45,846 nucleotides of DNA, from contig JAGOJI010000005.1 in the NCBI GenBank assembly GCA_017995195.1, positions 1 through 45,846 of the forward strand, in the 5' to 3' direction. Made by a program: the position numbers and the translations under genes. This DNA is from Cloacibacterium sp. GTDB lineage: Bacteria; Bacteroidota; Bacteroidia; Flavobacteriales; Weeksellaceae. Below the pieces are notes generated by a model that saw only the letters and a list, made by a program, of their open reading frames with translations, made no database searches and had not been told where the DNA came from. Positions 1,744 through 43,746 of this stretch are shown here, one piece after another (within the stretch, counting starts at the first letter, position 1; each line of letters starts with the position of its first letter).

Positions 1744-1784
1744 AAAAAATATTATGCACGCATAATATTTTTTATTTATATTAG
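1744..1784 (+). promoter_or_regulatory. etfBA promoter with MarR-type palindromic operator
   Basis: Bases 1744-1757 and 1760-1773 are perfect 14-bp inverted repeats around a 2-bp centre. The core is TTATGCACGCATAA at 1752-1765. Four bases after the right arm comes TATATTAG (1777-1784), one mismatch from the Bacteroidota -7 element TAnnTTTG. The same core operator and -7 spacing occur in front of the MarR gene at 43.7 kb. The palindrome would cover the upstream half of the promoter, which fits repression of etfBA. Confidence 0.8.
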
Positions 1785-2746: not shown

Positions 2747-3691
2747 ATGTCAATTTTTGTATATACAGAGAATGTAAACGGAGTTTACAAAAAAGCAGCG
2801 TTAGAAGCTGTTTCTTACGCAAAGTCCGTTGCGGACAAAGCAGGGACAGATGTAGTAGCAATTACGATAAACCCTACAGATCAAGCAGATGTATTGTATA
2901 AATACGGAGCTTCCAAAGTTATTGTTTTGAAGAGTGAAAATCTTAAAAACTTCAATGCTAAATCTTACGCCGAAGCATTGGCACAAGTGGCCGACGGTAT
3001 TGTAGTTTTCCCCCATACAGTAGAGGCAAGTTCGGTAGCCCCAATGTTGGCAGTTACCAAAAATGCAGCATTGATTACCAATGTAGTAGCCGTACCGGAA
3101 AGTGTTTCGCCGTTTAAAGTAAAAAGAAAGTCGTTCTCGGGAAAAGCCTTTATGCAAGTTCAAACCGAATCCTCTCAAGTGATTGTTACGGTTTCTCAAA
3201 ACGCTTTTGGTTTAAAAGAAAATCCTACCTCAGGCTCCGAAGAAGTAAAAGAAGTATCTGTCTCCAATGAAGGAATTACTGTAGTAAATCAAGAGAAATC
3301 TTCAGGGAAATTAGACCTTAAAGAAGCAGAAATTGTAGTTTCTGCGGGAAGAGGAATGAAAGGTCCCGAAAATTGGGGCATGATAGAAGACTTGGCAGCT
3401 ACTTTGGGAGCAGCAACAGCGTGTTCTAAACCCGTGTCGGATATTGGTTGGAGAGGTCACAACGAGCATGTGGGACAGACAGGTAAAGCCATAGCTCCCA
3501 ATTTGTATATTGCGATAGGTATTTCCGGAGCTATTCAGCATTTGGCAGGTGTTAACTCATCTAAGACTATTGTGGTGATCAATAATGATGCAGAGGCACC
3601 ATTCTTCAAATCAGCAGATTATGGTGTGGTAGGAGATGCTTTCCAGATTGTTCCTGTCTTAAATGAAAAAATAAAAGCATTAAAAGGATAA
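2747..3691 (+). CDS. etfA: Electron transfer flavoprotein subunit alpha
   Basis: The 314-aa large ETF subunit. The N-terminal domain (about 1-190) is the ETF alpha/beta fold. The C-terminal FAD-binding domain shows GRGMKG near residue 200, then ACSKPVSDIGW, the QTGK motif and the GISGAIQHLAG segment, followed by VINNDAEAPFF. These are the hallmark FAD contacts of EtfA. Together with EtfB it should serve the acyl-CoA dehydrogenase encoded at 36.9-38.7 kb. A strong bidirectional terminator follows. Confidence 0.96.
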   Translation: MSIFVYTENVNGVYKKAALEAVSYAKSVADKAGTDVVAITINPTDQADVLYKYGASKVIVLKSENLKNFNAKSYAEALAQVADGIVVFPHTVEASSVAPMLAVTKNAALITNVVAVPESVSPFKVKRKSFSGKAFMQVQTESSQVIVTVSQNAFGLKENPTSGSEEVKEVSVSNEGITVVNQEKSSGKLDLKEAEIVVSAGRGMKGPENWGMIEDLAATLGAATACSKPVSDIGWRGHNEHVGQTGKAIAPNLYIAIGISGAIQHLAGVNSSKTIVVINNDAEAPFFKSADYGVVGDAFQIVPVLNEKIKALKG

Positions 3692-36882: not shown

Positions 36883-38661
36883 TTAATAAGCCCCTTTCGC
36901 AACGTAATGTGCAGCTACTTTTTCGGTTAAAGCAATTACATTTGGCGTGTTGGTATATTTGGTAAATCTTCTAAGTCCGGAAAGCATCATACGTTGCTCA
37001 TCTCCTTCTGCGAAAGATACAATACCTTCTTTGGCTGCTACAATAATTTTTTCTACGGCTTTGTAGAGTTTCAGTTGTGCCATTGCTGCTTCTACACTAT
37101 CCGGAGCGAAATGTTTTTCGGCTCTTAAGATAGCAGATTCAGCCAAATAAATTTGGTTCAAGATTTCTGAAGCGTTGTAAAGCAAGTGTTGTTGCTTTTC
37201 TATTTCGGTCATATATTTCTGAAGTGCTGCACCGGAAACCATCAAAAATACCTTTTTCAGGTTGGCTAAAACAGCTTTTTCTTCACTCATATATTCAGAA
37301 TAGTCCGGAGTTTCAAAAGAAGGAATTCCCATCAATTCTTTACCAACTGCCATTGCAGGAGAAATGATGTCTAATTCTCCTTTCATTGCTTTTTTAATGA
37401 GCATTCCTACGGAAAGAAGACGGTTGATTTCATTGGTTCCTTCATAGATTCTGCCGATTCTGGCATCTCTCCAAGCGGCTTCCATTGGGGTTTCTTCGGA
37501 GAAGCCCATTCCTCCGTAGATTTGGATACCTTCGTCCGCAGCTTTTTGAGCGGCGTCAGAGGCATATACTTTCATTATAGAACATTCTACGGCAAACTCC
37601 TCCACACCTTTTAGTTCGGCTTGTTGGTGGTTCATTCCGCCTGCTACCAATTCTTCAATTTTTTCTTGAATATCACTTGCAGCTCTATACGCTCCCGATT
37701 CGCAAACGAAAGTTTCCATTGCCATATCTGCAATTTTCATTCTGATGGCTCCAAAGGTAGAAATTGGAACACCAAATTGCTTTCTTTCGTTGGCGTAAGT
37801 GATACCGTAGGTCAAAATCCTTCTTTGTGCGTCCAAACAAGCAGCAGCTAATTTTATTCTACCGACATTCAGAGCATTCAGAGCGATTTTGAAACCGTTG
37901 TTTCTTTCTCCCAAAAGATTTTCCACCGGAATTTTCATATCATTAAAGAAAACCTGACGGGTAGAGGAAGCTCTGATCCCCAATTTATGCTCTTCTTCGC
38001 CTAAAGTAAGGCTTGCGGGATTTTCGAGTTCGCTTCTGTTTACTACGAAACCGGTAATGTTTTTATCATCATCTATTTTAGCAAAAAGCGTGAAAGTATC
38101 GGCAAAACCTGCATTGGAAATCCACATTTTTTGTCCGTTGATGATGTAGTGTTTTCCGTCTTCGGAAAGTTTGGCTTTGGTTTTACCGGAGTTGGCATCG
38201 GAACCGGCATCGGGCTCTGTTAAACAATACGCTCCAAACTTGGTTCCGGCAGCTAAATCGGGAAGATATTTTTGTTTTTGCTCTTCTGTTCCGTACAATA
38301 GAATCGGCAAAGTCCCGATTCCTGAGTGTGCACCGTAAGCGGTAGCCAATGAACCGCTGCAACCGGAATAATAATCGCAAGCAAGCATGGTGGTAATAAA
38401 GCCCATACCCAAACCGCCGTAACTTTCCGGAACGGCAATACCCAAGGCACCTTGTTCGCCAATTTTACGCATCACTTCTTCGGTGAAAGCGTAATCTTTT
38501 TTCTCGAATCTTTCTTTTTGAGGAACAACTTCTCGATCCATAAATTCTTTTGCGGCATCGCGGATCATTTTTTGGTCGTCGTTCAAATCTTCAAGCGAAA
38601 AAACGTGCTTCGCTTCTGTTTCTTTTATTAGGAATTCTCCTCCTTTTAATGTATTGTTCAT
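36883..38661 (-). CDS. Acyl-CoA dehydrogenase with C-terminal extension
   Basis: A 592-aa FAD enzyme that oxidises acyl-CoA to trans-2-enoyl-CoA. Seen: SYGGLGMGFITTM near 80, CLTEPDAGSDANSGKTKA near 146-163, KMWISNAGFADTFTLFAK near 178-195, and QIYGGMGFSEETP followed by IGRIYEGTNEINR, which contains the candidate catalytic Glu near residue 415. About 170 residues follow the usual ACAD core, as in very-long-chain dehydrogenases. Electrons go to ETF, encoded at 1.9-3.7 kb under the same operator. It is the last gene of the operon headed by the MarR gene. Confidence 0.93.
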   Translation of the reverse strand: MNNTLKGGEFLIKETEAKHVFSLEDLNDDQKMIRDAAKEFMDREVVPQKERFEKKDYAFTEEVMRKIGEQGALGIAVPESYGGLGMGFITTMLACDYYSGCSGSLATAYGAHSGIGTLPILLYGTEEQKQKYLPDLAAGTKFGAYCLTEPDAGSDANSGKTKAKLSEDGKHYIINGQKMWISNAGFADTFTLFAKIDDDKNITGFVVNRSELENPASLTLGEEEHKLGIRASSTRQVFFNDMKIPVENLLGERNNGFKIALNALNVGRIKLAAACLDAQRRILTYGITYANERKQFGVPISTFGAIRMKIADMAMETFVCESGAYRAASDIQEKIEELVAGGMNHQQAELKGVEEFAVECSIMKVYASDAAQKAADEGIQIYGGMGFSEETPMEAAWRDARIGRIYEGTNEINRLLSVGMLIKKAMKGELDIISPAMAVGKELMGIPSFETPDYSEYMSEEKAVLANLKKVFLMVSGAALQKYMTEIEKQQHLLYNASEILNQIYLAESAILRAEKHFAPDSVEAAMAQLKLYKAVEKIIVAAKEGIVSFAEGDEQRMMLSGLRRFTKYTNTPNVIALTEKVAAHYVAKGAY

Positions 38662-38709: not shown

Positions 38710-39066
38710 CTATAAATTTTCAGATGATGTTTTGATGATTTTAGTCAAAATATTAATAATACTTTCAATCTCTTTTAAATATATTTCAATTTCAATTTGA
38801 ACTAAATTAGAGTTTTGATAGAGTTTTAGCCAATATTTTGTTTCTCTTGCTTCTTTGTTAGCAATGGAAAGTTTTGAGATAAAATCTTTTTTAGATTGAG
38901 CAGCAATTGCTTCTTCTACATTTGCACCAATTGAAGTCCCGCAACGAAGAATTTGTTTTGACAAAATAAATTCATTTTGAGATTTGCAATCAGTATAAAA
39001 TTTAATAATACTTAAAGCAAACTCAAATGTCTTTTTTTGTATTAAATTATCTTCTTTGAAACTCAT
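38710..39066 (-). CDS. Four-helix-bundle protein (23S rRNA IVP/S23 family), copy 1
   Basis: A 118-aa helical protein of the four-helix-bundle group first seen in intervening sequences of 23S rRNA genes (TIGR02436/PF05635). The hallmark RCGTSIGANVEEA lies near residue 42-54, followed by KEARETKYWLKL near 91-102. Function is unknown; some relatives (Avd) work in diversity-generating retroelements, but no reverse transcriptase is present here. It sits between thiolase and acyl-CoA dehydrogenase genes, flanked by TAGATTTTAAATTATAAATT-type sequence on one side and its inverted form on the other (38664-38702 and 39067-39104). Confidence 0.88.
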   Translation of the reverse strand: MSFKEDNLIQKKTFEFALSIIKFYTDCKSQNEFILSKQILRCGTSIGANVEEAIAAQSKKDFISKLSIANKEARETKYWLKLYQNSNLVQIEIEIYLKEIESIINILTKIIKTSSENL

Positions 39067-39099: not shown

Positions 39100-40278
39100 T
39101 TATAGCAATTCTATCACACTTGCGGCTCCTTGTCCTGTTCCTACGCACATAGAAACGATTCCGTATTTAGAGCCTCGGAGTTTCATCTCGTCGAGGAGTT
39201 GAACGGTAAGTTTTGCTCCGGTACAGCCAAGTGGATGCCCAAGTGCAATAGCACCGCCGTTCACATTTAAAATATCAGGATTCAATCCCAATTCTTTTTT
39301 GATGGCAACGGATTGAGATGCAAATGCCTCGTTGAGCTCAATTAAATCAATATCATTCAGCGTAAGACCTGCTTGTTTTAATGCTTTTGGAATCGCATAA
39401 ATAGGACCTACTCCCATGATTCTCGGTTCCAAGCCTGCTGCGGCGTAGGAAGCCAATCTTGCAATAGGCTCTAAGTTGAGTTCTTTTACCATTTCTTCGG
39501 ACATTACCACTACGAAAGCAGCTCCGTCGCTCATTTGAGAAGAATTTCCTGCCGTTACAGAACCTCCATTTGCAAATACAGGTTTTAGTTTTGCCAAACC
39601 TTCCAATGAAGTGTCTTTTCTGGGACCTTCATCTACCGAGAAATCAAATTTTTTGGTTTGAACTTTCTGGTTTTCGTCCAAGAAATTGTATTCTACAGGA
39701 ACCGGAACAATTTGTTTTGCAAATTTACTTTCAGCAATGGCTTTCAATGCTTTTTGATGAGATTCAAAAGCGAATTGATCTTGCTCTTCTCTTGTAATAT
39801 TGTACTGTTTTGCCACTTCTTCTGCGGTGTAACCCATTCCCCAATAATAGTCGGGATTAGATTTTGCATAATGACTTTCGGGAACAGGTTTATAGCCACC
39901 CATCGGAATGTAAGACATAGATTCTGCACCACCTGCGATGATGCAATCTGCCATTCCTGCCTGTATCTTGGCAGAAGCAATGGCTATAGCTTCCGAGCCC
40001 GATGCACAATATCGGTTTACCGTAACGCCCGGAACTTTGTCGGTATTTAATCCCATCAAAGAAATGAGGCGTGCCACGTTCAGACCTTGTTCTGCTTCCG
40101 GCATTGCATTGCCTACGATAAGGTCATCTACTCTATTTTTATCTAATTGTGGCAAATCTGCCATCAATTTTTCTAAGACTTTTGCTGCCATTACATCAGG
40201 ACGAGTAAATCTGAGGGAACCTTTCGGTGCCTTTCCTACTGCTGTTCTGTAACCTGCAACGATGTATGCTTGTTTCAT
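39100..40278 (-). CDS. Acetyl-CoA acyltransferase (3-ketoacyl-CoA thiolase)
   Basis: A 392-aa thiolase that cleaves 3-ketoacyl-CoA to acetyl-CoA and a shortened acyl-CoA. The nucleophile Cys lies in [15 protein letters not shown] near residue 89, [11 protein letters not shown] near 119-129 is the loop that marks degradative thiolases, and His/Cys of the second half appear in [18 protein letters not shown] near 338-355 and [10 protein letters not shown] near 376-385. It works with the two other enzymes of the operon. Its start region has been duplicated just upstream (40325-40338). Confidence 0.95.
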
Positions 40279-40358
40279 TTTATAGATTTTAGATGTTAGA
40301 TTTTAGAAGTTAGAGACTGATAACTGTTTCATTTTATATGACGTTAGAGACTGCTAAC
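40271..40358. repeat. Tandem duplication covering the thiolase start
   Basis: TGTTTCATTTTATA, which contains the thiolase start codon on the minus strand, occurs at 40271-40284 and again at 40325-40338. Each copy is followed by GTTAGAGACTGxTAAC (near 40309-40324 and 40343-40358). The second unit lacks about 20 internal bases. The extra start opens a nine-codon mini-ORF (40303-40332, minus strand) ahead of the true start. The end of the neighbouring four-helix-bundle gene lies in the outer repeat. Confidence 0.8.
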
Positions 40359-40716
40359 TATTTTTTAATTTTATTTTGAATGAATAAATCATTTTTTGAA
40401 TCTCCGAAAGTTCGTTAAGCAAAGGTTGAACATCATTTTCTGTTTTAAAATTTAATTCCTGTAAAAGGATTAACTGTGTTTCTAATTCATATGTTGAACC
40501 AAAAGCTATTCCTAAAAATTGAATAAATTCATTTACATTATTTCTGCCTGCACCCTCTGCAATATTAGAAGGAATAGATACAGCACATCTCCTGATTTGA
40601 CTAATAAGTCCGAATTTCTCTTCAGAAGGTAAGTCTTTTGTTAAAATGTAAACATTTTTTACTAAAGTAATTGACCTTAACCAAATTTGTAAATCGTGCA
40701 ATCTGTGTGCTCTCAT
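40354..40716 (-). CDS. Four-helix-bundle protein (23S rRNA IVP/S23 family), copy 2
   Basis: A 120-aa helical protein of the same broad family as the one at 38710-39066 but clearly from another subgroup: LQIWLRSITLVKNVYILTKDLP near residue 9-30, the hallmark RRCAVSIPSNIAEGAGR near 42-58, and YELETQLILLQELNF near 76-90. It lies between the 3-hydroxyacyl-CoA dehydrogenase and thiolase genes, again between T/A-rich inverted repeats (TTAGAATTTAGATATTAGAA upstream, its inverted form downstream). Function unknown. The two copies look like independent arrivals. Confidence 0.9.
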   Translation of the reverse strand: MRAHRLHDLQIWLRSITLVKNVYILTKDLPSEEKFGLISQIRRCAVSIPSNIAEGAGRNNVNEFIQFLGIAFGSTYELETQLILLQELNFKTENDVQPLLNELSEIQKMIYSFKIKLKNS

Positions 40717-40745: not shown

Positions 40746-43139
40746 TTAATTGCGAAGCGGTTTTCCATTCTGCAACATGTACTGAATTCTTTCTAAAGTT
40801 TTTCTTTCGCCACACAATTGTAGGAAGGCTTCTCTTTCGAGGTTCAATAGATATTGTTCAGATACTTCGGTGGGTTCAGAAAGGTTTCCTCCTACCATTA
40901 CATACGCTAATTTGTCTGCAATTTTCTTATCGTGTTCGGAGATGTATTTTCCTGTAACCATTTGGTCTGTACCTACTAAGAACATTCCCAAAGCTCCATT
41001 CCCCAAAACTTTTACTTTTTGTTCGATAGGTTGGGTGTAGCCTTGTTCTGCCATAAGTTTAGCCACTTTTTTGGCTTCGGCGATTTGTCGGTTTTTGTTC
41101 ACCACAACAATGTCTTTGTGTTTTTGCAAAATTCCCATATCGAATGCCTCATAGGCCGAAGTAGCTACTTTTGCCATTGCGATATTCATGAATGCGTCTC
41201 GCATACGGTTGTTTTTTACGTCATCGGAAACAAATTCTTTGGAAGTTCTCAAGGCAAATTCTTTGGAACCGCCACCTCCGGGAATTACACCGACACCAAA
41301 TTCTACCAAACCAATATAGGTTTCTGCGGCGGCTACTACTCGGTCTGCGTGCATGGTCATTTCACAACCACCGCCTAAAGTCATTCCGTGAGGAGCAACT
41401 ACCACAGGAATTGAAGAGTAACGAACCCTCATCATTGATTTTTGGAAATAAGAGATAGCCATATTCAGGTCGTCCCAGTCTTGGTCTACTGCCATCATAA
41501 AAATCATCGCCAAATTGGCTCCTACGGAGAAGTTAGCGGCTTGATTCCCAATAACTAAACCATCGTACTCTTTCTCTGCAAGGTCTATGGCACGGTTCAG
41601 TCCGTCTAAAACACCACCTCCGAGGGAGTTCATTTTGGAGCGGATTTCAAAGTTGATAATTCCGTCTCCCAAATCTTGAATGGCACTTTCGGAATTGCTC
41701 CACAAAGTTTTATTTTGTCTGATATTATCAAGGATAATGAATGAATCTTGCCCCGGAATTTTAACAAAATCCGATGATTTTTGGTTAAAGAAATTCTTAG
41801 CCCCTTCTTCGTTTACTTGGTAAAAAGTGTTGACCGATTTTACCCAGTCGGCTACTTCGTAGCCCGCTTCTTTGGCTAGTTCAATTCCTTTTTGAACGCC
41901 TACTGCGTCCCAAATCTCAAACGGACCATTTTCCCAACCGAAGCCGGCTTTCATGGCATCATCAACTTTGTAAAGTTCGTTGGAAATTTCAGGAATTTTG
42001 TGAGAAACGTAAGCGAAAAGTGCTCCGAGAGATTTTCGATATAATTCGCCTGCTTTATCTTTCCCACCGATTAATACTTTAAATCTATCAATCGGTTTGT
42101 CAATATTTTTGGTAAGTTCCAGTGTTGGGAAATTGGATTTGCCTTGAAGCTCGTACTCCATTGTCTCCAAATTCAAACCATGAATTTCGGATTTTCCTTC
42201 GGCGTTTTTAATTTTTTTGAAAAACCCCTGTTCTGTTTTCGAGCCCAGCCATTTGTTATCCATCATTTTTTGGATATAATCCGGAAGTGCAAAAACATCG
42301 TTGAAATCATTGGCTTCTGCACCACTTTGGCGAACACCGTTTGCTACGTGAACCAAAGTGTCCAAACCTACCACATCAGCCGTTCGGAAGGTTGCCGATT
42401 TTGGACGACCAATAACGGGACCGGTTAATTTGTCAATATCAGTTACATTGAGTCCAATATTTTTCACTTCGTGGAGCAAATTCATCATGCTGAAAACTCC
42501 GATTCTGTTGGCGATAAATGCAGGAGTATCTTTAGCTTCTACGGTGGCTTTTCCTAAGAATTTAGCACCGTATTCCATGTAGAATTTTACAATTTCCGGA
42601 TCGGTTTCTTGGGTAGGAATGATTTCTAAAAGTGGTAAATAACGCACAGGATTAAAGAAGTGTGTTCCTGCGAAATATTTTTTGAAATCATCGCTTCTTC
42701 CTTCCACCAACATATTAATAGGGATTCCCGAAGTGTTGGAAGACACCAAGGTTCCCGGTTTGCGGAACTGTTCTATTTTTTCGTACACCGATTTTTTGAT
42801 GTCGAGTCTTTCTACTACTACTTCGATAATCCAGTCGGTATTTTTGATTTTTGGTAAATCATCATCAAAATTCCCTACAGAAATTCTATCGGCAAATTCT
42901 TTTTTGTAAAGTAGTGCAGGACTGGCTTTTACCAATTTTGCTAAACTTTCTGTTGCAATTCTGTTTCGTACGGCTTTGTCTTCTTTGGTAAGACCTTTCT
43001 TGGTTTCGGCTTCGGTAAGTTCAAACGGAACAATATCCAGCAACAATACTTCTACACCAATATTGGCAAAGTGTGCTGCAATTCCGCTTCCCATAATCCC
43101 TGAGCCGAGAACGGTAACGTGTTTGATGTGTCTATTCAT
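40746..43139 (-). CDS. 3-hydroxyacyl-CoA dehydrogenase / enoyl-CoA hydratase fusion
   Basis: A 797-aa bifunctional beta-oxidation enzyme. The dehydrogenase comes first: NAD motif VLGSGIMGSGIAAHFANIG near residue 10-28, SSNTSGIPI near 133, HFFNPVRYLPLLEIIP near 160-175, then the C-terminal 3HCDH domain to about 440. The enoyl-CoA hydratase (crotonase) domain follows: GLVIGNQAANFSVGANLAMI near 530 and GMTLGGGCEMTMHADRVVAAA near 583-603 with VEFGVGVIPGGGGSKEFA near 611-628. This order is opposite to E. coli FadB and usual for Bacteroidota. It is the second gene of the MarR-led operon. Confidence 0.95.
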   Translation of the reverse strand: MNRHIKHVTVLGSGIMGSGIAAHFANIGVEVLLLDIVPFELTEAETKKGLTKEDKAVRNRIATESLAKLVKASPALLYKKEFADRISVGNFDDDLPKIKNTDWIIEVVVERLDIKKSVYEKIEQFRKPGTLVSSNTSGIPINMLVEGRSDDFKKYFAGTHFFNPVRYLPLLEIIPTQETDPEIVKFYMEYGAKFLGKATVEAKDTPAFIANRIGVFSMMNLLHEVKNIGLNVTDIDKLTGPVIGRPKSATFRTADVVGLDTLVHVANGVRQSGAEANDFNDVFALPDYIQKMMDNKWLGSKTEQGFFKKIKNAEGKSEIHGLNLETMEYELQGKSNFPTLELTKNIDKPIDRFKVLIGGKDKAGELYRKSLGALFAYVSHKIPEISNELYKVDDAMKAGFGWENGPFEIWDAVGVQKGIELAKEAGYEVADWVKSVNTFYQVNEEGAKNFFNQKSSDFVKIPGQDSFIILDNIRQNKTLWSNSESAIQDLGDGIINFEIRSKMNSLGGGVLDGLNRAIDLAEKEYDGLVIGNQAANFSVGANLAMIFMMAVDQDWDDLNMAISYFQKSMMRVRYSSIPVVVAPHGMTLGGGCEMTMHADRVVAAAETYIGLVEFGVGVIPGGGGSKEFALRTSKEFVSDDVKNNRMRDAFMNIAMAKVATSAYEAFDMGILQKHKDIVVVNKNRQIAEAKKVAKLMAEQGYTQPIEQKVKVLGNGALGMFLVGTDQMVTGKYISEHDKKIADKLAYVMVGGNLSEPTEVSEQYLLNLEREAFLQLCGERKTLERIQYMLQNGKPLRN

Positions 43140-43236: not shown

Positions 43237-43689
43237 TTATTTTTTAGAATTCATTTCATTGGTAATTTTTTGGATTTCCCCCATCACTTCTTTGAAAACT
43301 TCAAATTTTTCTTCAGGGATTCTTTCCAATACTTTTTTGTTGAAGTTAATCACGACTTCTTTAGATAAATTTCTAGAGTTAAGCCCTTTATCTGTAAGTT
43401 TGATGATGACTTCACGCTTATCGTTGGTTGTTTTTTCTTTATAGATATAGCCATTGTCTTCCAGTAATTTAATGATTCTGGTAAGAGAGGTAGGTTCAAT
43501 TGCCATTTTCGGACCGAGGTTGGTACTTCTTGTTCCTTCTTTAGGGTCTATTTTTAGTAGTGTAAGAGCCTGTACTGCGGTAGAATTGTGCATTGATGCT
43601 TGTTCGGAATACATTTTAGAAACAGCCAACCAAGCAGATTTCAAAATTAAATCTACACTTTCCACTTTTTCTGTTTTTCTTTTGTTCAT
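43237..43689 (-). CDS. MarR-family transcriptional regulator of beta-oxidation
   Basis: A 150-aa winged-helix regulator: dimerisation helices at both ends, the recognition helix in MAIEPTSLTRIIKLLEDNGY near residue 62-81, and the wing DKREVIIKLTDKG near 90-102. The frame is open to 43806, but the extra 39 codons run through the promoter and its two palindromes (they give a false repeat LLCxHNIF), so the ATG at 43689 is chosen. It heads the operon that codes for all three beta-oxidation enzymes and carries its own operators, so autoregulation is likely. The inducer is probably an acyl-CoA or fatty acid, by analogy to FadR-like MarR proteins; that is inference. Confidence 0.9.
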   Translation of the reverse strand: MNKRKTEKVESVDLILKSAWLAVSKMYSEQASMHNSTAVQALTLLKIDPKEGTRSTNLGPKMAIEPTSLTRIIKLLEDNGYIYKEKTTNDKREVIIKLTDKGLNSRNLSKEVVINFNKKVLERIPEEKFEVFKEVMGEIQKITNEMNSKK

Positions 43690-43699
43690 ATAAAATATG

Positions 43700-43746
43700 T
43701 TATGCGTGCATAGCAAATATAAAGAAAAAATATTATGCACGCATAA
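43700..43746 (-). promoter_or_regulatory. marR promoter with two operator palindromes
   Basis: TTATGCACGCATAA at 43733-43746 is perfect. TTATGCGTGCATAG at 43700-43713 has one mismatched position. Their centres are 33 bp apart, about three helical turns. Between them lies TATATTTG (43714-43721, minus strand), a perfect -7 element. The arrangement operator, ATATTTTTT, 4 bases, TATATTxG is the same as in the etfBA promoter. Confidence 0.85.

Follow-up and report, generated by a model that had tools for sequence, protein, structure and literature searches.

Genes and promoter elements at the two loci

The analyzed window, i.e., the whole stretch of 45,846 nucleotides from Cloacibacterium sp., carries on its forward strand the genes for the electron transfer flavoprotein (ETF) subunits beta (etfB, 1918–2664; Pfam ETF, 7.9e-32) and alpha (etfA, 2747–3691; Pfam ETF_alpha, 2.1e-32). 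On the reverse strand, marR (43237–43689, with the ATG at 43689; Pfam MarR, 1.1e-11) encodes a winged-helix regulator of 150 aa, and is followed by genes identified by profile searches as fadB-like (3-hydroxyacyl-CoA dehydrogenase/enoyl-CoA hydratase, 40746–43139), fadA-like (acetyl-CoA C-acyltransferase, or thiolase, 39100–40278), and fadE-like (acyl-CoA dehydrogenase, 36883–38661; NF058590, 687 bits, above the cut-off).

Two genes of the four-helix-bundle 23S rRNA IVP family (PF05635) lie inside this operon on the same strand, at 40354–40716 (5.5e-39) and 38710–39066 (4e-24). In 80 relatives (loci L042–L121), zero, one, or two copies are seen at varying positions, and in 25 loci the operon contains none, as if these genes had been inserted into it repeatedly. 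Divergently from etfB, the segment 117–1623 holds an ORF for a HinP1I-like restriction endonuclease and a C5-cytosine methylase; the former, 158 aa long, aligns to no more than positions 1–120 of the 208-position profile and may be truncated.

The preliminary description of this DNA had reported the same palindrome in front of etfB and of the marR gene 42 kb away, and the 14-mer TTATGCACGCATAA is indeed found exactly at 1752–1765, before etfBA, and at 43733–43746, before marR–fadB–fadA–fadE. In the orientation of the marR gene, the copy in front of it reads TTATGCGTGCATAA; as double-stranded DNA it is identical to the etfB copy. The list of two sites was incomplete, as a third, near-identical copy is located at 43700–43713 (CTATGCACGCATAA on the reverse strand, one change relative to TTATGCRYGCATAA), between the −7 box and the start codon of marR, about 10 nt before the ATG. 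We denote the two putative MarR operators at marR O1 (43733–43746) and O2 (43700–43713). At etfB, the 14-bp putative operator forms the core of a wider palindrome, TAYTATGCRYGCATARTA, as A/T flanks extend it to perfect arms of 14 nt, AAAAAATATTATGC/GCATAATATTTTTT.

At both promoters the operator is followed by the flank TATTTTTT-n-TTTATATT-n-G, in agreement with the earlier reading. This common flank belongs to the promoter and not to the operator; it contains the Bacteroidota −7 box, whose consensus TAnnTTTG occupies positions −12 to −5 (PMC9723704, PMC2483708). The consensus is matched or nearly matched by TATATTAG at etfBA (1777–1784, forward strand) and by TATATTTG at marR (43714–43721, reverse strand), each 11 nt after the operator (O1 in the case of marR). 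Transcription is predicted to start near 1789 for etfBA and near 43709 (reverse strand) for marR. Given the position of the −7 box, the two operators would span approximately −37 to −24, i.e., overlie the −33 region, and by the same spacing O2, directly after the −7 box and with its center 33 bp from that of O1, would cover the predicted transcription start of marR.

A palindrome next to a run of T may also be read as an intrinsic terminator or another RNA hairpin, and the 14-nt arms on the etfB side are followed by TTTTTT. Here this reading is very improbable: the palindrome lies 5′ of the gene and of the −7 box and, at etfB, between divergent genes; the T-run is not kept in other families (e.g., TATAATTATTCCAAATT), whereas the core TATGCnnGCATA is; and cysK has a terminator-like hairpin of its own before the marR promoter.

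From the base composition, one would expect 0.0006 exact copies of the 14-mer in the window and 0.03 in the assembly to which the window belongs (G000, 2.33 Mb, 89% complete). A scan of this assembly, proposed in the preliminary description with up to two mismatches, yields sites with zero or one mismatch to TTATGCRYGCATAA at the etfBA and marR promoters only, that is, the three copies given above. With two mismatches the count is at the level of the control (11 sites in total vs. 10 for the reversed pattern), and most of the two-mismatch matches (L004–L011) fall within ORFs. One of them, 3 nt before an sdhB-like gene, was considered as a further target and is regarded as a chance match.

Conservation of the putative operator

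In the 80 closest orthologs of the MarR (77–89% identity; Chryseobacterium, Epilithonimonas, Kaistella, Cloacibacterium, Halpernia, and relatives), the palindrome followed by the TAnnTTTG box is present upstream of marR without exception, and in 79 of these loci marR, fadB, fadA, and fadE follow in the same order. Many of the marR promoters contain two sites, spaced by 31, 78 (a minority), or 82–84 bp; the arrangement of O1 and O2 recurs with a spacing of 31 bp in genus g11 as well as in L057, L065, and L071. Spacings of 31–33 and 83–84 bp are close to whole helical turns (31 and 82–84 bp being near three and eight), and may point to cooperativity in binding.

The family etfB promoters show the same picture. 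All 30 best etfB matches have a site within one mismatch, 60–170 nt before the gene, with a TAnnTT[AT][GA] box 10–13 nt after the operator; a site within one mismatch is likewise found at 30 of 30 family marR loci. Exact-site loci taken from other genomes of the family correspond to marR–fadB or etfBA in 29 cases out of 30; the single exception is a perfect site 132 nt before an enolase gene (L041, genome G103). The operator columns carry 1.8–1.9 bits of information compared to 0.7–1.0 bits in the flanks, so that the conservation reflects selection acting on the site itself and not an overall similarity of the sequences. Exact TTATGCRYGCATAA is present in 46 of the 120 family genomes and YTATGCNNGCATAR in 106; the former count understates the conservation, as the outer base pair varies. 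In one genome (G055:C1:1095344–1096086), etfB is broken into two overlapping fragments containing in-frame stops, apparently by a frameshift or an assembly error; the operator is intact.

Outside the family, the site (with at most one mismatch) is seen at 20 of 20 marR and 20 of 20 etfB promoters of a second family, f3, compared to 0 of 40 for the reversed-pattern control. In family f7 it is present at 13 of 16 marR and 9 of 16 etfB promoters, and single genomes of f2 and f4 have it at both genes. In f5 and f11 the site is clear at marR only, the etfB site being absent in G141 (f11). In genomes beyond the order, the site (again with at most one mismatch) still stands before marR in 21 of 24 cases (control, 0 of 24), and 23 of the 24 marR genes adjoin fadB. 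The core common to all these families is TATGCnnGCATA, and TATGCRYGCATA precedes marR in nearly every genome sampled.

The A/T-richness of both promoters and their common −7 context would also be compatible with a chance match or a recent duplication of an A/T-rich promoter element. We assign this explanation a practically negligible probability. Against it stand the 0.03 exact copies expected per assembly, the control counts (mostly 0–1 matches of the reversed pattern per genome where the family genomes have 2–4 sites), and the conservation at both genes in separate families; the control counts together with the conservation in other families and outside the order already refute it.

Co-occurrence of the regulator, the site, and FadB

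Both MarR and the site are present in 104 of the 120 family genomes; three have MarR without the site, two the site without MarR, and 11 neither. Thus, the site accompanies 104 of 107 MarR genomes vs. 2 of 13 MarR-less ones (Fisher, 2e-11, for counts uncorrected for phylogeny). The 13 MarR-less genomes, 11 of them without the site, mostly lack FadB as well. A close FadB is seen in only one, G071, as a fragment (residues 442–797); as the etfB site is also present in this assembly, its MarR is probably unassembled. Another, G101, has only a remote dehydrogenase of 33% identity. Ten of the MarR-less genomes retain etfB and show no match to the site before it, even with two mismatches allowed. The same partition is observed inside a single genus, g17, where G070, G096, and G106 have both MarR and the site; G016, G040, G057, G080, and G101 have neither; and G089 has only a chance-like site. 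In two genomes (G003 and G030), the etfB site is absent and a marR site with one mismatch is kept.

These data bear on the possibility that a different, unlinked transcription factor binds the palindrome at both promoters, the adjacency of the MarR being incidental. One genome, G002, speaks for it, as its MarR (70% identity) is present, FadB is absent, and no site is found at marR or etfB; the MarR here is possibly a repurposed regulator. Binding of the palindrome by the MarR is, moreover, what we infer, and marR and fadB reportedly respond to Fur in Riemerella: in Riemerella anatipestifer, marR and the nearby fadB-like 3-hydroxyacyl-CoA dehydrogenase gene (RAYM_03864/03869) change together upon iron limitation and in a fur mutant, marR and fadB being raised by iron limitation, and a Fur box, ATTTATAATATTGATTATT, has been predicted (PMC5609570). 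However, this box differs from the palindrome; the site stands directly before marR in 80 of 80 near and 21 of 24 far relatives; and it is gone where the MarR is absent, even within genus g17. Hence, we consider an unlinked factor improbable, and binding by the MarR itself is the reading followed below.

Features of the MarR protein and extent of the proposed regulon

The protein is assigned to the MarR family by PF01047 (44.8 bits, cut-off 24.6). Searches for GntR or TetR DNA-binding domains, characteristic of the FadR and PsrA families, gave only MarR-type/winged-helix domains; none of the NCBIfam equivalog models reaches its cut-off, the FabT model NF050133 scoring 29.2 bits against a cut-off of 200. 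In the structural model (pLDDT 87), the recognition helix comprises residues 66–78 and the wing strands residues 82–86/94–98. The model superimposes on the SlyA–DNA structure 3q5f with a TM score of 0.80; among solved structures, the nearest to this protein are generic MarR/SlyA proteins of about 20% identity. Orthologs with as little as 35% identity retain the motif TSL[ST]R in the recognition helix, which is what an unchanging DNA target would lead one to expect. Consistent with autoregulation, the palindrome occurs in the protein's own promoter, with two sites in the window and at least one in all 80 orthologous loci.

MarR proteins can also act as activators. Accordingly, this MarR might bind the palindrome and activate, or repress in response to some other signal, e.g., redox or iron state; related solved structures include the redox-sensing AbfR and OhrR, and the increase of marR and fadB under iron limitation in Riemerella (PMC5609570) fits such a signal. 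We consider this variant unlikely, since the operators over the −33 region and O2 over the predicted transcription start are positions that favor repression over activation, several of the additional targets in relatives are lipid genes, and the 150-aa protein, lacking cysteine altogether, is a poor candidate for a thiol-based redox sensor.

The additional targets are seen in families f3 and f11. An acyl-CoA ligase gene next to the marR operon is preceded by an exact site in two f3 genomes (L324, L325). Other exact sites in f3 and f11 precede genes for 2,4-dienoyl-CoA reductase (L317); FabK-like flavoproteins (L193, L315, L323); a FabH-like synthase (L316); esterases (L195, L197, L320, L321); and TonB-dependent receptors (L313, L314). 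The lipid-related function of several of these genes fits a fatty-acid signal. In other genomes, some sites stand before genes without an evident link to the pathway, namely the enolase gene of L041, TonB receptors, and short unknown ORFs, and chance matches may be included among the receptors and the few unrelated neighbors.

The Cloacibacterium assembly itself gives a narrower picture. At its 89% completeness, the predicted regulon comprises two promoters only, with no ligase or transporter; its AMP-binding genes of the acyl-CoA ligase type have no convincing site, and a search for the ETF–quinone oxidoreductase (PF05187) as a further target gave no match. The sites before the ligase and dienoyl-CoA reductase genes of relatives suggest the kind of regulon that the preliminary description had named as support (acyl-CoA ligase, transporter, or further acyl-CoA dehydrogenase genes); such a regulon is not seen in the genome for which it had been proposed.

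Proposed regulation and relation to known systems

The site and its conservation, the fact that it is present or lost together with MarR and FadB, and the functional coherence of additional targets in relatives make repression by the MarR the best-supported model. In our assessment it is highly probable that the palindrome is the operator of the MarR encoded at 43237–43689, and that this protein is an autoregulated repressor of beta-oxidation and etfBA, probably released by a fatty-acid-type ligand; the evidence is comparative, and the binding, the repressive rather than activating effect, and the nature of the ligand are deduced from it. According to this model, the MarR dimer would bind the two sites at the marR–fadB–fadA–fadE promoter and thereby repress the regulator gene together with the genes for the beta-oxidation enzymes; bound to the single etfBA site, it would repress ETF, to which the acyl-CoA dehydrogenase passes its electrons. 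In both promoters an operator immediately precedes the −7 box and overlies the −33 region, so that the bound protein would exclude RNA polymerase; at marR, O2 would additionally cover the transcription start. Upon arrival of fatty acids, the repressor would be released by a metabolite of the pathway, acyl-CoA or free fatty acid being the most likely candidates, so that the enzymes and the electron carrier would rise together. The earlier suggestion that one regulator sets the pathway and its electron carrier is thereby supported by genome comparison, namely, by the retention of the site before both marR and etfB and by its co-loss with the regulator.

A response to fatty acids or acyl-CoA is consistent with the increased expression of beta-oxidation genes in Flavobacterium psychrophilum with mucus or plasma (PMC9723704). 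The Fur-dependent changes of marR and fadB described above for Riemerella point to a second input in at least one relative, and suggest that iron status feeds into the marR–fadB operon there.

Two proteins of the same winged-helix fold have detectable similarity to this MarR, CouR (6c28) and FabT (6jbx), the latter with 17% identity in structural alignment. CouR answers aromatic acyl-CoA, and FabT controls lipid genes; their targets, aromatic catabolism and fatty-acid synthesis, respectively, differ from those proposed here.

The FadR protein of Bacillus subtilis has the TetR fold. Its regulon consists of lcfA–fadRB–etfBA, fadNAE, and fadH (PMC6529636), so that, similar to the situation proposed here, one repressor controls both beta-oxidation and etfBA, and its set of enzymes (ligase, FadB/N, FadA, FadE, and dienoyl-CoA reductase) is similar to that obtained by pooling the targets across the relatives analyzed. 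The B. subtilis system differs in its operator and in the placement of etfBA inside the operon of the regulator, whereas here etfBA has a promoter of its own. PsrA, FadP, and FadR of Proteobacteria are likewise dedicated regulators of fatty-acid degradation that have been reconstructed from conserved operator motifs (PMC5343134, PMC3223726); they come from another phylum and belong to the TetR or GntR families, none being a MarR. In the literature searched, which leaves most subscription journals outside, we found no prior description of a MarR regulator of beta-oxidation in Bacteroidota, of the palindrome itself, or of a corresponding RegPrecise reconstruction, and no described counterpart of FadR or PsrA in this phylum.

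Extending the model to the class (Bacteroidia, as judged from the taxa seen), we somewhat favor an apparently undescribed MarR master repressor of fatty-acid oxidation acting through TATGCRYGCATA operators. The marR–fadB site would be ancestral and ETF a conserved second target; ligase, dienoyl-CoA reductase, esterase, and receptor genes would have been gained in a lineage-specific manner; and acyl-CoA would be the likely effector.

The analysis thus yields a candidate regulator of fatty-acid degradation for this class of Bacteroidota, together with an exact operator, and offers an explanation of how joint control of the pathway and its electron carrier could be achieved. The kind of regulator is already known, both in its FadR/PsrA-like function and in its MarR family; the practical use is real, as it covers much of a class of bacteria. 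Since the operator is so constant (TATGCRYGCATA), regulon membership should be predictable from sequence in hundreds of genomes, including those of Flavobacterium and Riemerella, where beta-oxidation or marR–fadB reportedly answer host material or iron.
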